A stretch of 25,668 nucleotides of DNA from a virus (IMGVR_UViG_3300013130_000041:1-25668); one strand, 5' to 3'. Positions 953 through 22,504 are shown, numbered from the stretch's first letter. Translations and numbers: made by a program. Notes: generated by a model not told the origin, from the letters alone.

Positions 953-1933
953 TCAGGTTACTTCAACATCATCCGTGACAGGTCTCACGTCATGGTTGTT
1001 CTCCTGTCTACGAAGAATTGCGGGCTTCAACTTACGCAGGTATCTTCGCTTCGTGCGTTCAAGACTGTCGGGGTCCAGATGAAGAATCCACTCAAAAGCC
1101 AAACGCCAACCTTCCAAAGCAGTCTTGCAATTCGTGATTACAATTCGCATGGGACCAACTTTTAGATTCTCGTGTTCTTCTCGAATCTCTCGAAATGTTC
1201 GCAACCACGGCCGAGGAGTAAATCCCTCGTAAAATCGTTCTAGCCTACCTTGCTTAATAGCAATTCGATACTGCGATAAAGCACCCAATACCGCTGCCTT
1301 AAATTCCGGCAGTGACAGTATTCGAGCTTCATCAACAAACTGACTTCTCAATTGAGTTGGCAGTTTGCTAAGATGATAGGCCGCCTCTAAAGCCATTTCA
1401 CCACGATCCACTGAACGCTGAATGGCAATCGGGAGCGCTGTTAGTTGAAGCATCCAACTAATCCAAGTCGGACTCTTATGAAGCGTGCGCGCCATCGCGG
1501 CCATTGTCATGCCAACATCACTCTGGAGCACACGTCGAATCTGCAAAGCAAACTCAGACTTTGTAGTAGTCGGGCGCACTGCATTCGCGGCAATCTGCAT
1601 TGCCAACACGTCTGTATCACTCAAACCAAACTTGACGATGCACGGGATAGCTGGCAATCCAATCTCTTTTGCAGCCGTCCAACGATAGCGACCATCGACA
1701 ACCTCAAACTTTCCAGGCACCCGAGGAGACGGGCGCACACAGATAGAATTGAGGAAACCGCGAGCAGCCAATGAATCGCGCATCTCCAAGTATTCGACAC
1801 CTCCCTCTTTCACCTCCCGAAGAATTAGAGGGGAGTCAACTAACTCTTCAGTGGGGATAAGCCGAAACTCATCAGGCATGGTCGAATCCAGCGCCGAATT
1901 ACTCATCTCACTATAGGTACGGCCAAACGGCAT
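953..1933 (-). CDS. ParB-like DNA-binding protein
   Basis: A 326-residue ParB/Srx-fold protein. The N-terminal ParB domain starts near residue 21 (F-R-L-I-P-T-E-E-L) and contains the signature V-D-G-R-Y-R-W-T-A-A (the GxRRxxA-type nucleotide-binding box) and I-P-C-I-V. A helix-turn-helix follows (MTMAAMARTLHKSPTWISWML), then a helical C-terminus ending in a basic stretch. Such proteins bind specific sites and, in phages and plasmids, act in partition, transcription control or nuclease-type functions. No ParA is visible, so partition is not implied. I chose ATG 1933 because an extended -10 box lies just upstream. ATG 1906 is a credible alternative, and the longer frame back to 2194 has no support. 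The frame crosses the left arm of an inverted duplication in its first 15 codons. Confidence 0.8.
   Translation of the reverse strand: MPFGRTYSEMSNSALDSTMPDEFRLIPTEELVDSPLILREVKEGGVEYLEMRDSLAARGFLNSICVRPSPRVPGKFEVVDGRYRWTAAKEIGLPAIPCIVKFGLSDTDVLAMQIAANAVRPTTTKSEFALQIRRVLQSDVGMTMAAMARTLHKSPTWISWMLQLTALPIAIQRSVDRGEMALEAAYHLSKLPTQLRSQFVDEARILSLPEFKAAVLGALSQYRIAIKQGRLERFYEGFTPRPWLRTFREIREEHENLKVGPMRIVITNCKTALEGWRLAFEWILHLDPDSLERTKRRYLRKLKPAILRRQENNHDVRPVTDDVEVT
1890..1929 (-). repeat. left arm of inverted duplication (parB 5' end)
   Basis: Read on the minus strand from 1929 to 1906, this arm matches the plus strand 2013-2036 at 22 of 24 positions, with the core TTGGCCGTACCTATA (1926 to 1912) identical. 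After a gapped stretch, ATTCGGCGCT (1899 to 1890) is identical to 2056-2065. The arm covers the first codons of parB, or its immediate leader if translation starts at 1906. Confidence 0.85.
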
Positions 1934-2012: not shown

Positions 2013-2065
2013 CGATTGGCCGTACCTATATTGAGACGCGACAGTAACCCAAGCGATTCGGCGCT
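2013..2065 (+). repeat. right arm of inverted duplication (primase relic leader)
   Basis: This plus-strand arm carries TTGGCCGTACCTATA at 2016-2030 and ATTCGGCGCT at 2056-2065, both exactly matching the left arm in inverted orientation. The core centres are about 104 bp apart, close to ten helical turns. The arm runs directly into the relic of the primase 5' end. Confidence 0.85.
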
Positions 2066-2136
2066 TTCTTGCTGCCCAACAAGAATGGCATCCCGGCGCT
2101 GACCTGATTGACCGATACCTCCAACTGGGTGGGATA
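2041..2136 (+). pseudogene. relic of the primase gene 5' end
   Basis: Read from 2041, 32 codons translate to a peptide matching residues 3-34 of the primase at 2644: TVTQAIRRFLAAQ against TVTEAINRFLASQ, then WHPGADLIDRYLQLGG against WHPGFDLIQRFLTLGG. By eye, 22 of 32 residues and 67 of 96 bases are identical. The codons where the primase has its ATG read GAC here, and an in-frame TGA lies at 2032-2034, so no start remains. Homology stops at ATA followed by TGA (2137-2139), which overlaps the HNH start as ATATGA. It is a decayed duplicate lying just before the endonuclease gene. Confidence 0.8.
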
Positions 2137-2656
2137 TGAAACACAAACCCATTCCACAACTCACCCAAGACGAAATTGCTTCATTCTGGTCCAAAGTCGA
2201 TCAATCCGGTGGCCCAACAGCTTGTTGGGAGTGGCAAGGGGCAACCAATGGGCAGAAAGGATACGGCCAACTAACCATCCGCCAACGACATCTCTATGCA
2301 CATCGTCTTGCCTACGCCTTAACCCACTGCGACCCCGTGAATTGCTAGTGTGTCATCGCTGTGATAATCGCCTTTGTTGCAATCCAAGTCATCATTTTCT
2401 TGGTACCATGAAAGATGACGTTAGAGACATGGTAACAAAAGGCCGCGCCCGTGGCGGAGCACAGCAACCACTTAAAGGAATCCACCATCCGCAGGCCAAA
2501 CTTACCGATGCCCTTGTCCTGCAAATTCGTGCATCAAATGGCATCAGTTGCAATGAATGGGCACGGCGGCTAGGTGTCTCACCTGGAACAATCTCATGCA
2601 TCTTCAACCAACGGACTTGGAAACATCTACTTAAAGGTTACTCATGCCAACGGTAA
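2136..2656 (+). pseudogene. HNH endonuclease, frameshifted
   Basis: The gene is split over two frames. The first frame, from ATG 2136, gives the N-terminal part typical of phage HNH proteins (EIASFWSKVDQSGG, CWEWQGA, GYGQL, HRLAYALTH) and stops at 2346-2348. The frame entered at about 2336 continues with LLVCHRCDNRLCCNPSHHFLGT, the HNH zinc-binding core, then MKDDVRDMVTKGRARGG and a C-terminal helix-turn-helix (CNEWARRLGVSPGTISCIF). Together they make a normal product of about 170 residues. The break is equivalent to one base missing from the C run 2333-2336; there is no canonical slippery heptamer there. It may be a true inactivating mutation or a sequence error. It sits between two copies of the primase 5' end, a typical homing-endonuclease setting. 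Confidence 0.8.
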
Positions 2657-5427
2657 CTGAAGCAATCAACCGCTTTCTTGCATCCCAAGAAAACTGGCAT
2701 CCCGGCTTTGACCTGATTCAACGCTTCCTTACCTTGGGCGGTGCCACAACTTTAGAGGTGCAAGTCAACGCAGCAGCCGATGGCGGCGAGCCGGTGGAAG
2801 GCCGGCGGCATACCTGGACTGATGGCAACCTGACATGGTTCAACATCCGGGTACCCAAAAACGCGAATACCAAGCCAGAGTTCAACGACTACGAGATGTA
2901 TTGGCCCCTGGAGTTGCACGCCGAGGGAGTAGGTTGTACTGGATTTGATTGGAAGAATCTTCGCTCTCGCTGGGTTGCCTACGACTTCGATGCAATCACT
3001 GGGCACGCCAAAGGCGTTGGCATCTCAGAAGAGATGTTGGCCCAAATCAAAGAGCGCGCCAAGGCGGACCCGACCGCCGAGATTCGGCTGAGCACTGGCG
3101 GTGCGGGGCTCCATATCTACAAGTTCTTCGATGGCGATGGCATCCCAACTGCCAACCACAACGAGCACGCTGCTCTCGCTCGGTGCATCCTGGGGCAAAT
3201 GTCCGAATTGGTTGGCTTCGACTTCGCCTCTCAGATTGATGCTTGCGGCCATATCATGTGGCTCTGGCATCGAAAGTTGACCCGCGAGAATCGTGGCCTC
3301 TCACTGCTGAAAGCTGCCGAGCGGAATCTAACTATTGCTGATCTCCCGCCCAACTGGCTCGACCATCTGGCCGTTGTCACCCGACGCCAAACCAAAATCC
3401 GTCTCCAAGGGGTCGATGAAAAGTCACTTGATCCTTTCGAGATGCTCACTTCGTCGCGCCGTATTATTCCACTGGATGAAATCCATAAAGCCACCATCCA
3501 AGAACTCATGGAGACGGGTTTCTCAACTGTCTGGGTTACAGACCATCATCTTCTCCAGACGCATACCAAGGCTCTTGAAAAACTGATGACCGATCCTAAG
3601 ATTCGGGCCAAACTCGGATTGATCGGCACCTTCAAGACAAACAGCCCTGGCACCAATCCTGGACAAGCCAATTGCTTTCTCTTTCCATTGAACAACGGCG
3701 GCTGGCGGGTCTATCGCTTCAGCCCTGGCATCAGTGAAGAGCAAACCTGGGTTCAGGATGGGCAAGGTTGGACCACTTGCTTCTTCAACCGACTCCCTGA
3801 TCTGGACATGGCCTGCCGGTCCTATGGCGGTCAACGAGACCCAGACCATAAGGCTCTCTACGTCTTCCCAACCGGCGAGAAAGCAATTGCTGCTGCACGC
3901 TCCATTGGTCAGACTCTTGAATTGGAGCCCGAGTGGAAACATCGACAAGTCTCATTGGAACGCACCGGCAATGGAACATTGGCTGTCCGTGTTGCTCACA
4001 AGAAAGGTGACAGTGAAGAGATTGCAGGCTGGATCAAAAAGAAATCAACATGGGTCCGCGACCTGAATCAACAACTACCCGCCGACGACAAAAACGAACT
4101 TGGGGCCACTGACTTTGATGACATCATTCGGGCCACGCGCGCACCAAGCGGCGACACAGCCGGATGGATGCACAAGTCTACCAATGGAGAGTGGGGCGGC
4201 GAGCACTCTAGCAATGTCAAAATGGTCCTTCAGAGTGCCGGACAATCAAAACCAGAGGCAGAGGTTATCATGGGTGGCTGTTCTCACAATCCGTGGAAAT
4301 TAGTCAGCCTTCCCTTTCAATCTGAATATCCAGGGGCACGACAATGGAACCGAAAAGCCCCTCAATTCCTCTACCCGATTGCCGAACTCAAAGATGATGA
4401 AGTGCCACAACATCCTCACTGGGACTTGATCCTAAACCATGTTGGCACCGAATTGACGCCCGTACTTCGCGCGCTCCCGTGGGCACGCGAGCACGGTATC
4501 CTTACCGGTGCCCAATACTTGCTTTGCTGGTTCTCCGCTTTAGTTCGGCATCCCTTCCGACAGTTGCCCTACATTTTCCTTTGGGGTAACGAGAATTGTG
4601 GCAAGTCAATTCTCTATGAGGCATTCAGCTACATCGTCACCCGTGGAGTCATCGGTGCTGCTAAGGTGCTGACTACAACAGGTGACTTCAATGGTGAACT
4701 TGAAGGTGCAGTGCTGTGTTATGTGGAAGAACTAGACCTTTCGCATCACAAGGTTGCCCTTCCCCGAATCAAAGAGTATGTCACGGCCTACATGATTCCA
4801 CTTCGCAAGATGCGGTTGAACACCTACCAGATTCCAAACACAACCCACTGGATTCAAGTCGCCAACGACCGCAATTTCTGTCCAGTCTTTAAGGGAGACA
4901 CGCGCATCGTTGTCATTCGCGTGCCAGACCTACTCCCGGAACAAGAGATTCCTAAGTTCCGCATGAAAGAGTATCTCCGACAAGAGGCACCTCACTTCAT
5001 CTACTCTTTGATGAATTGCAAGTTGCCGCCACCAATGGGACGCCTCCAGATTCCGATTGTGGAGACGGAAAGCAAACTCGACATTGCCGAAAGCAACCGC
5101 ACCCCACTACAAATCTTCCTTGATACCAAAGTTCAAATTGCTCCCGGCTACAAGATTAGAACCTCTACACTCTTTGCAGCCTATCAACTCTGGTGCAAAG
5201 AAAATAACCATCCTGATCCCAACATCGTTACCTTTGTCAAAGAACATTGCTTCCATACTTGGCGCGGGTCGGGTGGGGTTCGTTTCATTCCCAACTATTC
5301 CTTGTCTAAGGTTCCACCTGTCGCACACGGCAACATTGAAATCATTGATGCCAAACCTCACTATCGAGATGCCAACGGAAATCTGCAACGTCTAACAGAT
5401 GCCCAGATTCCAGGAGATGGACTATGA
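2644..5427 (+). CDS. primase-helicase (AEP primase fused to SF3-type ATPase)
   Basis: A 927-residue replication protein. The N-terminal half resembles archaeo-eukaryotic primases: motif I YDFDA (D114, D116), motif II STGGAGLH (H157), and a likely third metal ligand in QIDAC (D199). The C-terminal half is a D5/SF3-like helicase: Walker A GNENCGKS (648-655), Walker B AVLCYVEELD (689-698), a motif C-like VANDRN (739-744, N741), and a probable arginine finger in GDTRIVVIR (R754). It would prime and unwind phage DNA at the fork. The middle (about residues 260-560) has no motif I recognise. ATG 2644 has AAAGG 7 nt upstream and lies inside the end of the HNH gene (13-nt overlap). An ATGA overlap couples it to the next gene. 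Confidence 0.85.
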   Translation: MPTVTEAINRFLASQENWHPGFDLIQRFLTLGGATTLEVQVNAAADGGEPVEGRRHTWTDGNLTWFNIRVPKNANTKPEFNDYEMYWPLELHAEGVGCTGFDWKNLRSRWVAYDFDAITGHAKGVGISEEMLAQIKERAKADPTAEIRLSTGGAGLHIYKFFDGDGIPTANHNEHAALARCILGQMSELVGFDFASQIDACGHIMWLWHRKLTRENRGLSLLKAAERNLTIADLPPNWLDHLAVVTRRQTKIRLQGVDEKSLDPFEMLTSSRRIIPLDEIHKATIQELMETGFSTVWVTDHHLLQTHTKALEKLMTDPKIRAKLGLIGTFKTNSPGTNPGQANCFLFPLNNGGWRVYRFSPGISEEQTWVQDGQGWTTCFFNRLPDLDMACRSYGGQRDPDHKALYVFPTGEKAIAAARSIGQTLELEPEWKHRQVSLERTGNGTLAVRVAHKKGDSEEIAGWIKKKSTWVRDLNQQLPADDKNELGATDFDDIIRATRAPSGDTAGWMHKSTNGEWGGEHSSNVKMVLQSAGQSKPEAEVIMGGCSHNPWKLVSLPFQSEYPGARQWNRKAPQFLYPIAELKDDEVPQHPHWDLILNHVGTELTPVLRALPWAREHGILTGAQYLLCWFSALVRHPFRQLPYIFLWGNENCGKSILYEAFSYIVTRGVIGAAKVLTTTGDFNGELEGAVLCYVEELDLSHHKVALPRIKEYVTAYMIPLRKMRLNTYQIPNTTHWIQVANDRNFCPVFKGDTRIVVIRVPDLLPEQEIPKFRMKEYLRQEAPHFIYSLMNCKLPPPMGRLQIPIVETESKLDIAESNRTPLQIFLDTKVQIAPGYKIRTSTLFAAYQLWCKENNHPDPNIVTFVKEHCFHTWRGSGGVRFIPNYSLSKVPPVAHGNIEIIDAKPHYRDANGNLQRLTDAQIPGDGL

Positions 5428-20700: not shown

Positions 20701-21744
20701 CTACTGATCTTCGCGCGTCACAACGGGCTCAATGACATTGCACTTGCCAGTGAGCGAGATTGTGGCTTCCTTGAAGTTGATTTCCTTCGTCTCAGCCCGG
20801 AAATCCGGGAAGAGAGTAAGTTCCTTCTGTGCCCCGCCGCATGGCGGAATATGCTCGACTTCAATGTCAATGGCATAGGGTTCACACGGATCACTAGCCG
20901 AACTGACCCAACCCGAAGCCTCACCAGTGCCCTTCAGAGCATCCATCGGGCTAATGTCTTCTGACGTTCCCGTAGTGATATGCTCGTAAGTGCAATCTAG
21001 TTTCACATCCATCGGCACTTCGTCTCCCTCCCGCACCGTATCAAGATCGCCCCGGTCAAGCATATACTCGTAATTCCGGTGCTCGGTATAGGTAATGTTG
21101 CCATCGCCCACCTTAATCTCGATTTGCTGCGAAAGGAAAGTAATGACAGCACCATTCACAGGCAAATCAGGTGGTTCATCTGCTTCCAATGCCGGGGAGA
21201 ATGTCAACTCCCAAGTTGTTCCACCAGGGCGAACCTGAGTAATAACCACGGTGCCTGCGCCGCCATCCTTCGTGAGAAGCGTCGTATCCGCCACAAGCAA
21301 AGCCACGTTCGTTTCGGCATATTGGCCGGTAAACTGAACCACGAAGTTGGGATTCGTGCCGCTAACCACCACATCCCCGGTGTCAAAATCATCGGTGGCA
21401 ATCAATGCCGCTTGAACAGCAGCGGCATCTGCGTTATACGCAATGTTGCCAGTGGGGTCGCCGGTAGCGCCCAATTTCAAGGTATAGGTTCCACCGTCAG
21501 CGTCGATTACAACCGTCTGCTTTTCGTTGGCATTCTGCGCCGTCACCGTGTAGGTTTCTTCAACACTGGCGATCTGAAATCGCGCACCAACCGGCACAAT
21601 CGAAGTCAGATTTGTGAGATTGGCAACGCTATCAATCTCCAATGTGGTGTTGCCGTCTGCAATCGACGTGTCATCGACCGCAGCCGCCCCACCAAAACCA
21701 TCCTTGAATCGGATGGTACAATCTCGGAGTTCAATACGCGCCAT
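20701..21744 (-). CDS. tail tube protein, long paralogue with inserted domain
   Basis: A 347-residue protein whose N-terminus (MARIELRDCTIRFKDG) and last 140 residues closely match the 249-residue protein encoded just upstream. The C-terminal core includes QQIEIKVGDGNITYTEHR, YEYMLDRGDLDTVREGDEVP, SEDISPMDALKG, EVEHIPPCGGAQ and FKEATISLTGKCN, the pattern of a phage tail tube subunit. About 100 extra residues lie between: GGTYTLKLGATGDPTGNIAYN, AAAVQAALIATDDFDTGDV and FTGQYAETNVALLVAD, an Ig-like beta module often attached to phage structural proteins. It would project from the tube surface. AAGAGGTGAAAC precedes ATG 21744. A hairpin terminator follows. Confidence 0.8.
   Translation of the reverse strand: MARIELRDCTIRFKDGFGGAAAVDDTSIADGNTTLEIDSVANLTNLTSIVPVGARFQIASVEETYTVTAQNANEKQTVVIDADGGTYTLKLGATGDPTGNIAYNADAAAVQAALIATDDFDTGDVVVSGTNPNFVVQFTGQYAETNVALLVADTTLLTKDGGAGTVVITQVRPGGTTWELTFSPALEADEPPDLPVNGAVITFLSQQIEIKVGDGNITYTEHRNYEYMLDRGDLDTVREGDEVPMDVKLDCTYEHITTGTSEDISPMDALKGTGEASGWVSSASDPCEPYAIDIEVEHIPPCGGAQKELTLFPDFRAETKEINFKEATISLTGKCNVIEPVVTREDQ
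21038..21138. repeat. near-identical direct repeat, copy in long tube gene
   Basis: This block matches 22092-22192 with a single difference (G21085 against A22139), at a constant offset of 1054. It includes third codon positions, whereas the flanking homologous sequence is visibly more diverged. It encodes the QQIEIKVGDGNITYTEHR to GDLDT segment. Confidence 0.9.
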
Positions 21745-21754
21745 GTTTCACCTC

Positions 21755-22504
21755 TTACTGATCTTCGCGTGTGACAGTCGGTTCAATGACGTTGCACTTC
21801 CCGGTCAACGCAATGGTCGCTTCCTTGAAGTTGATTTCCTTCGTTTCAGCCCGGAAGTCTGGAAACACAGTGATTTCCTTCTGCGCCCCGCCGCATGGCG
21901 GAAGATGCTCAACTTCCACGTCGATAGCGTACGGCTCGCACGCATCGCTGGCCGAACTAACCCACTCCTCTGCTTCACCGATGCCCTTCAGAGCATCCAT
22001 CGGGCTGATGTCTTCCGACGTACCCGTTGTAATATGCTCGTAAGTGCATTCCAGCTTCACATCAAGCGGGACTTCATCACCCTCGCGCACTGTATCAAGA
22101 TCGCCCCGGTCAAGCATATACTCGTAATTCCGGTGCTCAGTATAGGTAATGTTGCCATCGCCCACCTTAATCTCGATTTGCTGCGAAAGGAACGTCACAA
22201 CCGCTCCGTCAAGATATGTGCCGGCCCCAAGGGCAGGCGCAAAGACGATGTTGGTTGTCGGACTGGTACCAGTCGGTGTCCGGGCGGTCACAGTATGAAC
22301 AGTATCAGCAGCCGTCTCACCAACAACAGTGAAACGTGCGCCAACCGGAATCAGATCGATGTCTGCCGTATTCAACACGATTGTGTCAATGTCGAAATCG
22401 GTATCATCCTGAGCCGGAGGTGTGACAGGTTCATTGACTGCCCCAGTACCGCTCAGTCCATCCTTGAACCGGATAATACAGTCACGGAGTTCAATTCTTG
22501 CCAT
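21755..22504 (-). CDS. tail tube protein, short paralogue
   Basis: A 249-residue protein starting at ATG 22504 behind AGAGGAGAAC. It has the same N-terminus (MARIELRDCIIRFKDG) and C-terminal core as the long paralogue 10 nt downstream, and lacks only the Ig-like insertion. Its position after the connector and completion genes and before the chaperone and tape measure identifies it as the probable major tail tube subunit. The two genes may be co-assembled, or one may serve at a tail end. A 101-bp part of the shared core is almost identical at the DNA level. Confidence 0.8.
   Translation of the reverse strand: MARIELRDCIIRFKDGLSGTGAVNEPVTPPAQDDTDFDIDTIVLNTADIDLIPVGARFTVVGETAADTVHTVTARTPTGTSPTTNIVFAPALGAGTYLDGAVVTFLSQQIEIKVGDGNITYTEHRNYEYMLDRGDLDTVREGDEVPLDVKLECTYEHITTGTSEDISPMDALKGIGEAEEWVSSASDACEPYAIDVEVEHLPPCGGAQKEITVFPDFRAETKEINFKEATIALTGKCNVIEPTVTREDQ
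22092..22192. repeat. near-identical direct repeat, copy in short tube gene
   Basis: This is the partner of 21038-21138: 100 of 101 positions are identical by eye. The sharp edges against more diverged flanks suggest recent gene conversion between the two tail tube genes, or selection on the DNA or RNA itself. Confidence 0.9.

Follow-up and report, generated by a model that had tools for sequence, protein, structure and literature searches.

The locus described here is probably a free-standing gene for an HNH homing-type endonuclease, inserted in a primase gene near codon 33 together with a foreign primase 5′ end; both cleavage by the nuclease and the donor are inferred. It lies in the window (the whole 25,668-nucleotide stretch of viral DNA that was analysed), where a relic of the native primase 5′ end precedes the nuclease gene and the working primase follows it (Table 1). 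The first-pass annotation, made from the sequence alone, had put forward as its main hypothesis that a homing endonuclease arrived with a diverged primase 5′ end and left the old end as a fossil. This is supported, and most of the tests proposed with it were passed. The closest relative found, L004 (contig IMGVR_UViG_3300032020_000131), has 90% amino acid identity to the window over the first 485 primase residues and served as the reference for the uninterrupted locus.

Table 1. Features of the parB-primase region of the window.
Feature	Position	Strand	Evidence or remarks
parB-like gene, divergent	953..1876	-	PF02195 ParB_N, E = 5e-9
Promoter-like motif TTGGCCGTACCTATAGTGAGA, facing parB	1906..1926	-	Inverted twin of the 2016-2036 motif; conserved in L004
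Promoter-like motif TTGGCCGTACCTATATTGAGA	2016..2036	+	Precedes the primase in L004; fronts the relic in the window
Native primase 5′ end as a relic, codons 3-33	2038..2139	+	Start codon and leader missing; runs up to the HNH start
HNH gene, N-terminal half, to the frameshift stop	2136..2348	+	phrog_3593, E = 5.5e-13; phrog_826, E = 2.8e-12
HNH core VCHRCDNRLCCNPSHH and C-terminal DNA-binding part, other frame	2333..2656	+	phrog_59, E = 5.6e-16; phrog_1872, E = 1.9e-12
Imported (foreign) 5′ end of the working primase	2644..2760	+	63% identity to L004 versus 83% downstream
Primase-helicase gene, 927 aa, native from about 2760	2644..5427	+	PF19263 DUF5906, E = 2.6e-10; phrog_1156 DNA primase, E = 2.4e-18

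Two primase 5′ ends with different histories

The relic frame at 2035-2139 translates as DATVTQAIRRFLAAQQEWHPGADLIDRYLQLGGI followed by a stop. Its codons at 2041-2133 match residues 3-33 of the primase with 22 of 31 residues identical (BLASTP, E = 2e-14), and the relic and the working 5′ end share 72.2% DNA identity across 90 nt. The relic has no start codon, and its TGA stop overlaps the ATG of the HNH gene (ATGA, 2136-2139). The first-pass annotation had given the match as 22 of 32 residues, covering residues 3-34, at about 70% DNA identity, in a relic without a start codon that ends where the HNH gene begins. All of this held except the protein figures, which are corrected here, and a match no better than chance, which would have refuted the hypothesis, is not what was found. 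Compared with L004, a leader of about 35 nt and the start codon are deleted from the relic, and the promoter motif, the relic and the HNH gene are therefore contiguous.

In L004, parB and the primase diverge around the same motif pair, the primase has only one 5′ end, and the intergenic region is free of HNH genes; the C-terminal half of the HNH gene, used as a query, also had no match in the 15-kb L004 record. Relic and L004 share 83.3% DNA identity and 27 of 30 residues over codons 3-32, the changes being mostly silent. The primase bodies of the window and L004 are 83.2% identical in DNA, whereas the working right copy reaches 64.4% (21 of 30 residues) over the same codons. Identity to L004 switches from 63% to 83% at a single breakpoint, 2760 (support interval 2758-2775), and none of 2000 permutations gave one as good. 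Silent divergence is also raised in the right copy, where 14 of the 21 codons for identical amino acids differ, compared with 40% in the body (Fisher p = 0.02).

Among the variable sites, the left copy agrees with L004 at 19, the two copies agree with each other at 9, and the right copy agrees with L004 at 2. Quartet bootstraps for the left copy with L004 were 87%, 74%, and 97% with three outgroups. In the tree of the 90-nt segment, the right copy joins the distant L093 (80/84 support), outside the left copy, L004, L092, and L095. The AU test on this segment, which is low in power, did not reject a clade of the left and right copies (p = 0.13). The L004 primase 5′ end has its ortholog in the start-less left copy, and the 5′ end of the working gene, the right copy, is of foreign origin up to a sharp breakpoint. 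Because the left copy is L004-like and the right copy is the outlier, the HNH gene appears to have arrived with the foreign 5′ end.

The parB gene is the constant left neighbour of the primase, lying upstream of it in most relatives. In the intergenic region of the window, two long promoter-like motifs, GGCCGTACCTATA(G/T)TGAGA, lie in inverted orientation; they are the only two matches across the window (0.01 expected). L095 and L098 apparently have an inverted motif pair of their own with a different sequence, and a lineage-specific divergent operator or promoter is a possibility suggested by these differences. When ten relatives were searched with Pfam RNA_pol for a T7-type single-subunit RNA polymerase as the reader of the motif, no match was obtained, but the control was also matchless, so that this absence carries no weight. 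Elsewhere in the window, the adjacent genes at 20701-21744 and 21755-22504 (minus strand) both start with MARIELRDC.IRFKDG and have near-identical ends; they are a tandem duplication, the gene being probably one for a tail protein.

Primase relatives, donor search and the nuclease gene

Most relatives have parB and the primase without an HNH gene, and no second primase 5′ copy was seen in about 60 relatives with a readable upstream region. Members of three other primase lineages (L097-099, L148-149, and L183) carry an HNH gene directly upstream of the primase without any relic, which is how a donor would be expected to be arranged. The HNH stop lies inside the first primase codons in L098, as in the window, and the HNH gene ends a few bases ahead of the primase ATG in L149 and L183. 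A truncated HNH gene is located directly upstream of the primase in L144 and L194. Scans of viral contigs with primase and HNH queries did not find a donor combining the 5′ end of the right copy with an HNH gene. Because no phage with this exact sequence and an HNH gene was found, the donor is inferred. A scan of genome contigs with the primase alignment yielded three MAG relatives, all without an HNH gene.

The predictions of the first-pass annotation for these relatives fared unequally. An uninterrupted relative was to be looked for, and L004 is one; the left copy was expected to be the native one, and it is orthologous to L004. The right copy was expected to group with HNH-bearing phages. 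This part failed, as no special grouping with HNH-bearing primases was found, and the donor lineage therefore remains unidentified. Relatives that carry both copies without an HNH gene would have counted against the hypothesis, and there were none among the approximately 60.

Several other observations were made on these contigs. The primase relatives L214, L215, and L216 are in contigs binned as Planctomycetota/Pirellulales, which hints at planctomycete hosts. In L160 (3733-4410) and L162 (8495-9178), the full-length primase is followed after about 1 kb by a second, short ORF for a primase-type helicase; it was considered as a nuclease scar and rejected, being a separate paralogue of 226-228 aa. 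L144, a phage contig, has a tmRNA gene (2120-2358, minus strand; Rfam RF00023, E = 9.5e-36) near its parB-primase locus.

The nuclease of the window is identified as an HNH endonuclease by PHROG HNH-family matches for both of its halves; the Pfam HNH_3 and HTH_38 matches are weak and below the cut-off. A frameshift at about 2333-2348, which the first reading had overlooked, places the N-terminal half and the His-Asn-His core in different frames and is consistent with one missing base. The second frame stops at 2656, overlapping the primase start by 13 nt. Unless it is a sequencing error, the frameshift has probably inactivated this copy, and the window element, known from a single metagenomic contig, is likely to be decaying. 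Judged as a free-standing HNH homing endonuclease, the window gene fits in being an HNH_3/His-Me finger nuclease that has a separate DNA-binding part and lies in neither an intron nor an intein, and in varying between presence and absence at one site among relatives (absent in L004, L092, L093, L095, and L096; present upstream of the primase in L098, L149, and L183). It does not fit in lacking an intact ORF, because of the frameshift.

A second system in a phage helicase family

The arrangement recurs in a helicase family that is unrelated to the primase and constitutes an independent system. In the starting case, L295, an HNH gene separates a short N-terminal fragment from a DEAD/ResIII helicase gene (Pfam). 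The 80 helicase loci collected belong mainly to two alleles, A (54 loci, 85-100% identity to L295) and B (23 loci, 62-67% identity to L295, with the typical start MLRDYQQRTIDQLYA). A B-type 5′ relic is present upstream in 18 allele-A loci, with up to 14 of 14 residues matching, and the relic threshold was reached by none of 108,486 control windows. The relics correspond to the first 13-18 codons of the other allele, the breakpoints are confined to codons 13-18, and the order at the 18 loci is relic, nuclease, and intact helicase with its own start codon. Four kinds of nuclease follow the relics. Two are HNH_3, one is of the endonuclease VII type, and the last is NUMOD3/I-HmuI-NUMOD, with an N-terminus that by eye resembles GIY-YIG. 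Where the nuclease is HNH1, its gene runs past the helicase start and terminates within the opening codons of the helicase.

The helicase is immediately preceded by the end of one of these four nucleases at 41 of 53 allele-A loci, compared with 1 of 22 allele-B loci. The Fisher test for this association (p = 3e-9) presumes independent loci, which these are not. The 5′ kilobase of the helicase in L312 is A-type, and parts of both flanks are closest to B-type phages. The HNH2-type relics vary between loci (62 to 100% identity), which may reflect several insertions or exchange that used the relic as a homology arm. L309, L310, and L311, contigs from different samples, have the same relic junction. 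Across L309-L363, at least four nuclease types are found at codons 13-18 of one helicase gene, and L342/L344, L350, and L354 apparently have further types at the same site.

In a wider survey, flank duplications at ≥24 bits were found for 7 of 85 HNH ORFs and 10 of 603 other ORFs (Fisher p = 0.002). Because the window was counted twice and one of the hits is a tandem-gene repeat (L112), the statistic is only a lead; shifted-centre controls in an earlier version of the survey showed repeats too. Reading by eye, the 5′ end of a neighbouring gene appears on both sides of an HNH gene in L128 (2682-3484) and L238 (2950-3494), and the 3′ end in L116 (2729-3341), L113 (2648-3351), and L227 (2922-3508). 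It is possible that 5′-end and 3′-end versions exist elsewhere, each instance being a single locus. No relic was present beside related HNH genes in twelve isolate phages. In the isolate phages L297-L301, L303, and L307, the last 8-40 nt of the HNH gene, stop included, lie within the gene that follows, and there is no relic; the following genes encode endonuclease I, a DnaB-like helicase, gp16, or a single-stranded DNA-binding protein, and the joint is like that in the window.

Proposed route, rival explanations and known systems

We propose that the mobile unit is an HNH gene and a primase 5′ end that were joined in a previous host, the HNH stop lying within the first primase codons. The nuclease would have cut the native primase near codon 33, both its activity and the cut site being inferred. 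The break would then have been repaired from the donor through homology on the right side, and the left side would have been sealed illegitimately or through an older relic; this repair route is also inferred. The foreign 5′ end, presumably without the cut site (resistance is inferred), would have replaced resident codons 1 to about 38 and supplied a ribosome-binding site and a start codon of its own, and the primase would therefore have stayed intact. The displaced native 5′ end would have been left between the promoter and the HNH gene, losing its leader and start codon later. In both systems, the putative cut is near the relic boundary and the donor would be a nuclease joined to a diverged, presumably uncuttable 5′ end. 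The recipient would gain the nuclease and a substitute 5′ end, keep the gene body, and leave its native 5′ end upstream, and later rounds of homing could use the relic as the left homology arm.

Because the same trick recurs in an unrelated helicase, selfish nuclease genes may use it generally to enter vital genes while leaving them functional. By a narrow margin, we favour the bolder reading that splicing-free homing elements with diverse nucleases (HNH, endonuclease VII, and NUMOD/GIY-YIG-like) form a general class in phages. Such elements would enter replication genes at a fixed position within the 5′ coding sequence and keep the gene working by supplying a substitute 5′ end that resists cutting; in further rounds of homing, what remains of the native 5′ end would act as the left homology arm. 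If true, this would account for sudden allele changes where phage replication genes begin, for stray N-terminal fragments ahead of HNH genes, and for the overlaps of HNH stops with next-gene starts in several isolates. Each relic would be a predicted cut site, and the adjoining gene a predicted resistant allele.

The alternative offered by the first-pass annotation is a tandem duplication of the primase 5′ end within the lineage, followed by HNH invasion between the copies and divergence of the right copy. In its favour, nine states are common to the left and right copies and absent in L004, and the AU test does not reject their grouping. It is nevertheless unlikely, because the working copy would have to change at roughly ten times the rate of the dead one (19 right-only versus 2 left-only differences). 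Moreover, the silent changes of the right copy exceed the gene average, and its divergence ends abruptly just beyond the duplicated stretch. No relative has the duplication without an HNH gene, and elsewhere HNH genes lie directly upstream of the primase without any duplication. The site counts, the breakpoint, and the relatives thus all disfavour this alternative.

A second rival, ordinary illegitimate recombination between two phages where genes meet, in which the HNH gene was merely carried along and no nuclease acted, is also unlikely. Phage genomes are mosaic, the HNH copy is frameshifted, and there are no cleavage data. However, random joints are not expected to produce the helicase series of relic, nuclease, and intact gene, with breakpoints at codons 13-18 and four nuclease types. 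A chimeric assembly of co-occurring strains, only some of which have the HNH gene, is less likely still. The locus is known from one metagenomic contig, but no sequence common to both sides of the relic-HNH joint was seen that an assembler could have used, the switch from foreign to native occurs inside one continuous primase ORF, and equivalent structures are present in contigs of different samples (the shared junction of L309, L310, and L311). A group I intron or intein with the HNH gene inside the primase can be all but dismissed: introns and inteins often carry HNH genes, but no Rfam intron match was obtained at the gathering score or at E ≤ 1, so that the criterion of a catalytic intron RNA is not met and a group I intron is rejected, and the flanking segments duplicate rather than continue each other, with the primase start codon downstream.

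The reading we prefer, replacement of a gene end by homing, was compared with known systems. No phage case and no 5′-end case was found in the searchable literature; most subscription papers are outside it, and this absence is therefore weak evidence of novelty. The seg and mob genes of T4-like phages are free-standing (intronless) homing endonucleases (PMC2988022). They resemble the window in being intron-free endonuclease genes beside essential genes, with co-conversion of flanking coding sequence, but they sit between genes and cut the neighbour at a distance, and a split target gene with a relic end is not described for them in the bearing sections of PMC2988022. One-sided illegitimate repair has been documented for T4 intron homing (1999 work, summarised in PMC2988022). 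Homology on one side with a non-homologous junction on the other is a plausible route for a first insertion; however, that was a laboratory system with an intron, and the junctions were not linked to replacement of a gene end.

The mORFs of fungal mitochondria (Allomyces atp6; Glomus atp6/atp9/cox2/nad3) involve the 3′ ends of genes (PMC3630166). As in the window, an endonuclease ORF brings a foreign gene terminus, and the native terminus is a displaced duplicate matching an insertion-free relative. The mORFs differ in affecting C-terminal ends in mitochondria with LAGLIDADG or GIY-YIG enzymes, whereas the window has an N-terminal end in phage DNA.

The WHO elements of Torulaspora and Lachancea yeasts have a LAGLIDADG/HO-type enzyme and the 3′ end of FBA1 in nuclear DNA (Coughlan et al. 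2020, eLife 9:e55336, PMC7282813). Their proposed logic, in which a nuclease travels with a resistance-conferring gene end and the leftover fragment acts as a homology arm, is backed by cleavage tests (PMC7282813). The likeness includes a mobile unit of a nuclease gene and a resistance-conferring end of the target gene (resistance being inferred for the window and the helicase loci), replacement of the end of an essential gene while the old end stays as a fragment beside the nuclease, the lack of splicing, and discordant histories of gene end and gene body. In contrast, WHO elements swap the 3′ end and the phage loci swap the 5′ end with a new start codon; the phage nucleases are HNH, endonuclease VII or NUMOD types, and cleavage, shown for WHO, is inferred for the phages. 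Of the WHO-like criteria, a duplicated target-gene end on both sides of the nuclease is met in the window and the helicase loci. A native displaced copy with a foreign working end discordant with the body is met in the window and by the mosaic L312. Replacement of a 3′ end is not met in either system and is seemingly present in L116, L113, and L227. The criterion of WHO proper, an HO/VDE-type LAGLIDADG protein, is not met, the matches being to HNH families instead. The classification as WHO-like is by kind, not by descent.

Taken together, the phage loci likely match a rare but known type of homing element with the polarity reversed: the 5′ end is swapped without splicing, cleavage remaining an inference. 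Homing nucleases in essential genes are normally thought to require an intron or intein. WHO elements and mORFs represent a third route, replacement of the 3′ end, and our results suggest that phages use its 5′ mirror image, with nucleases of several families and in no fewer than two replication genes that are unrelated to each other.
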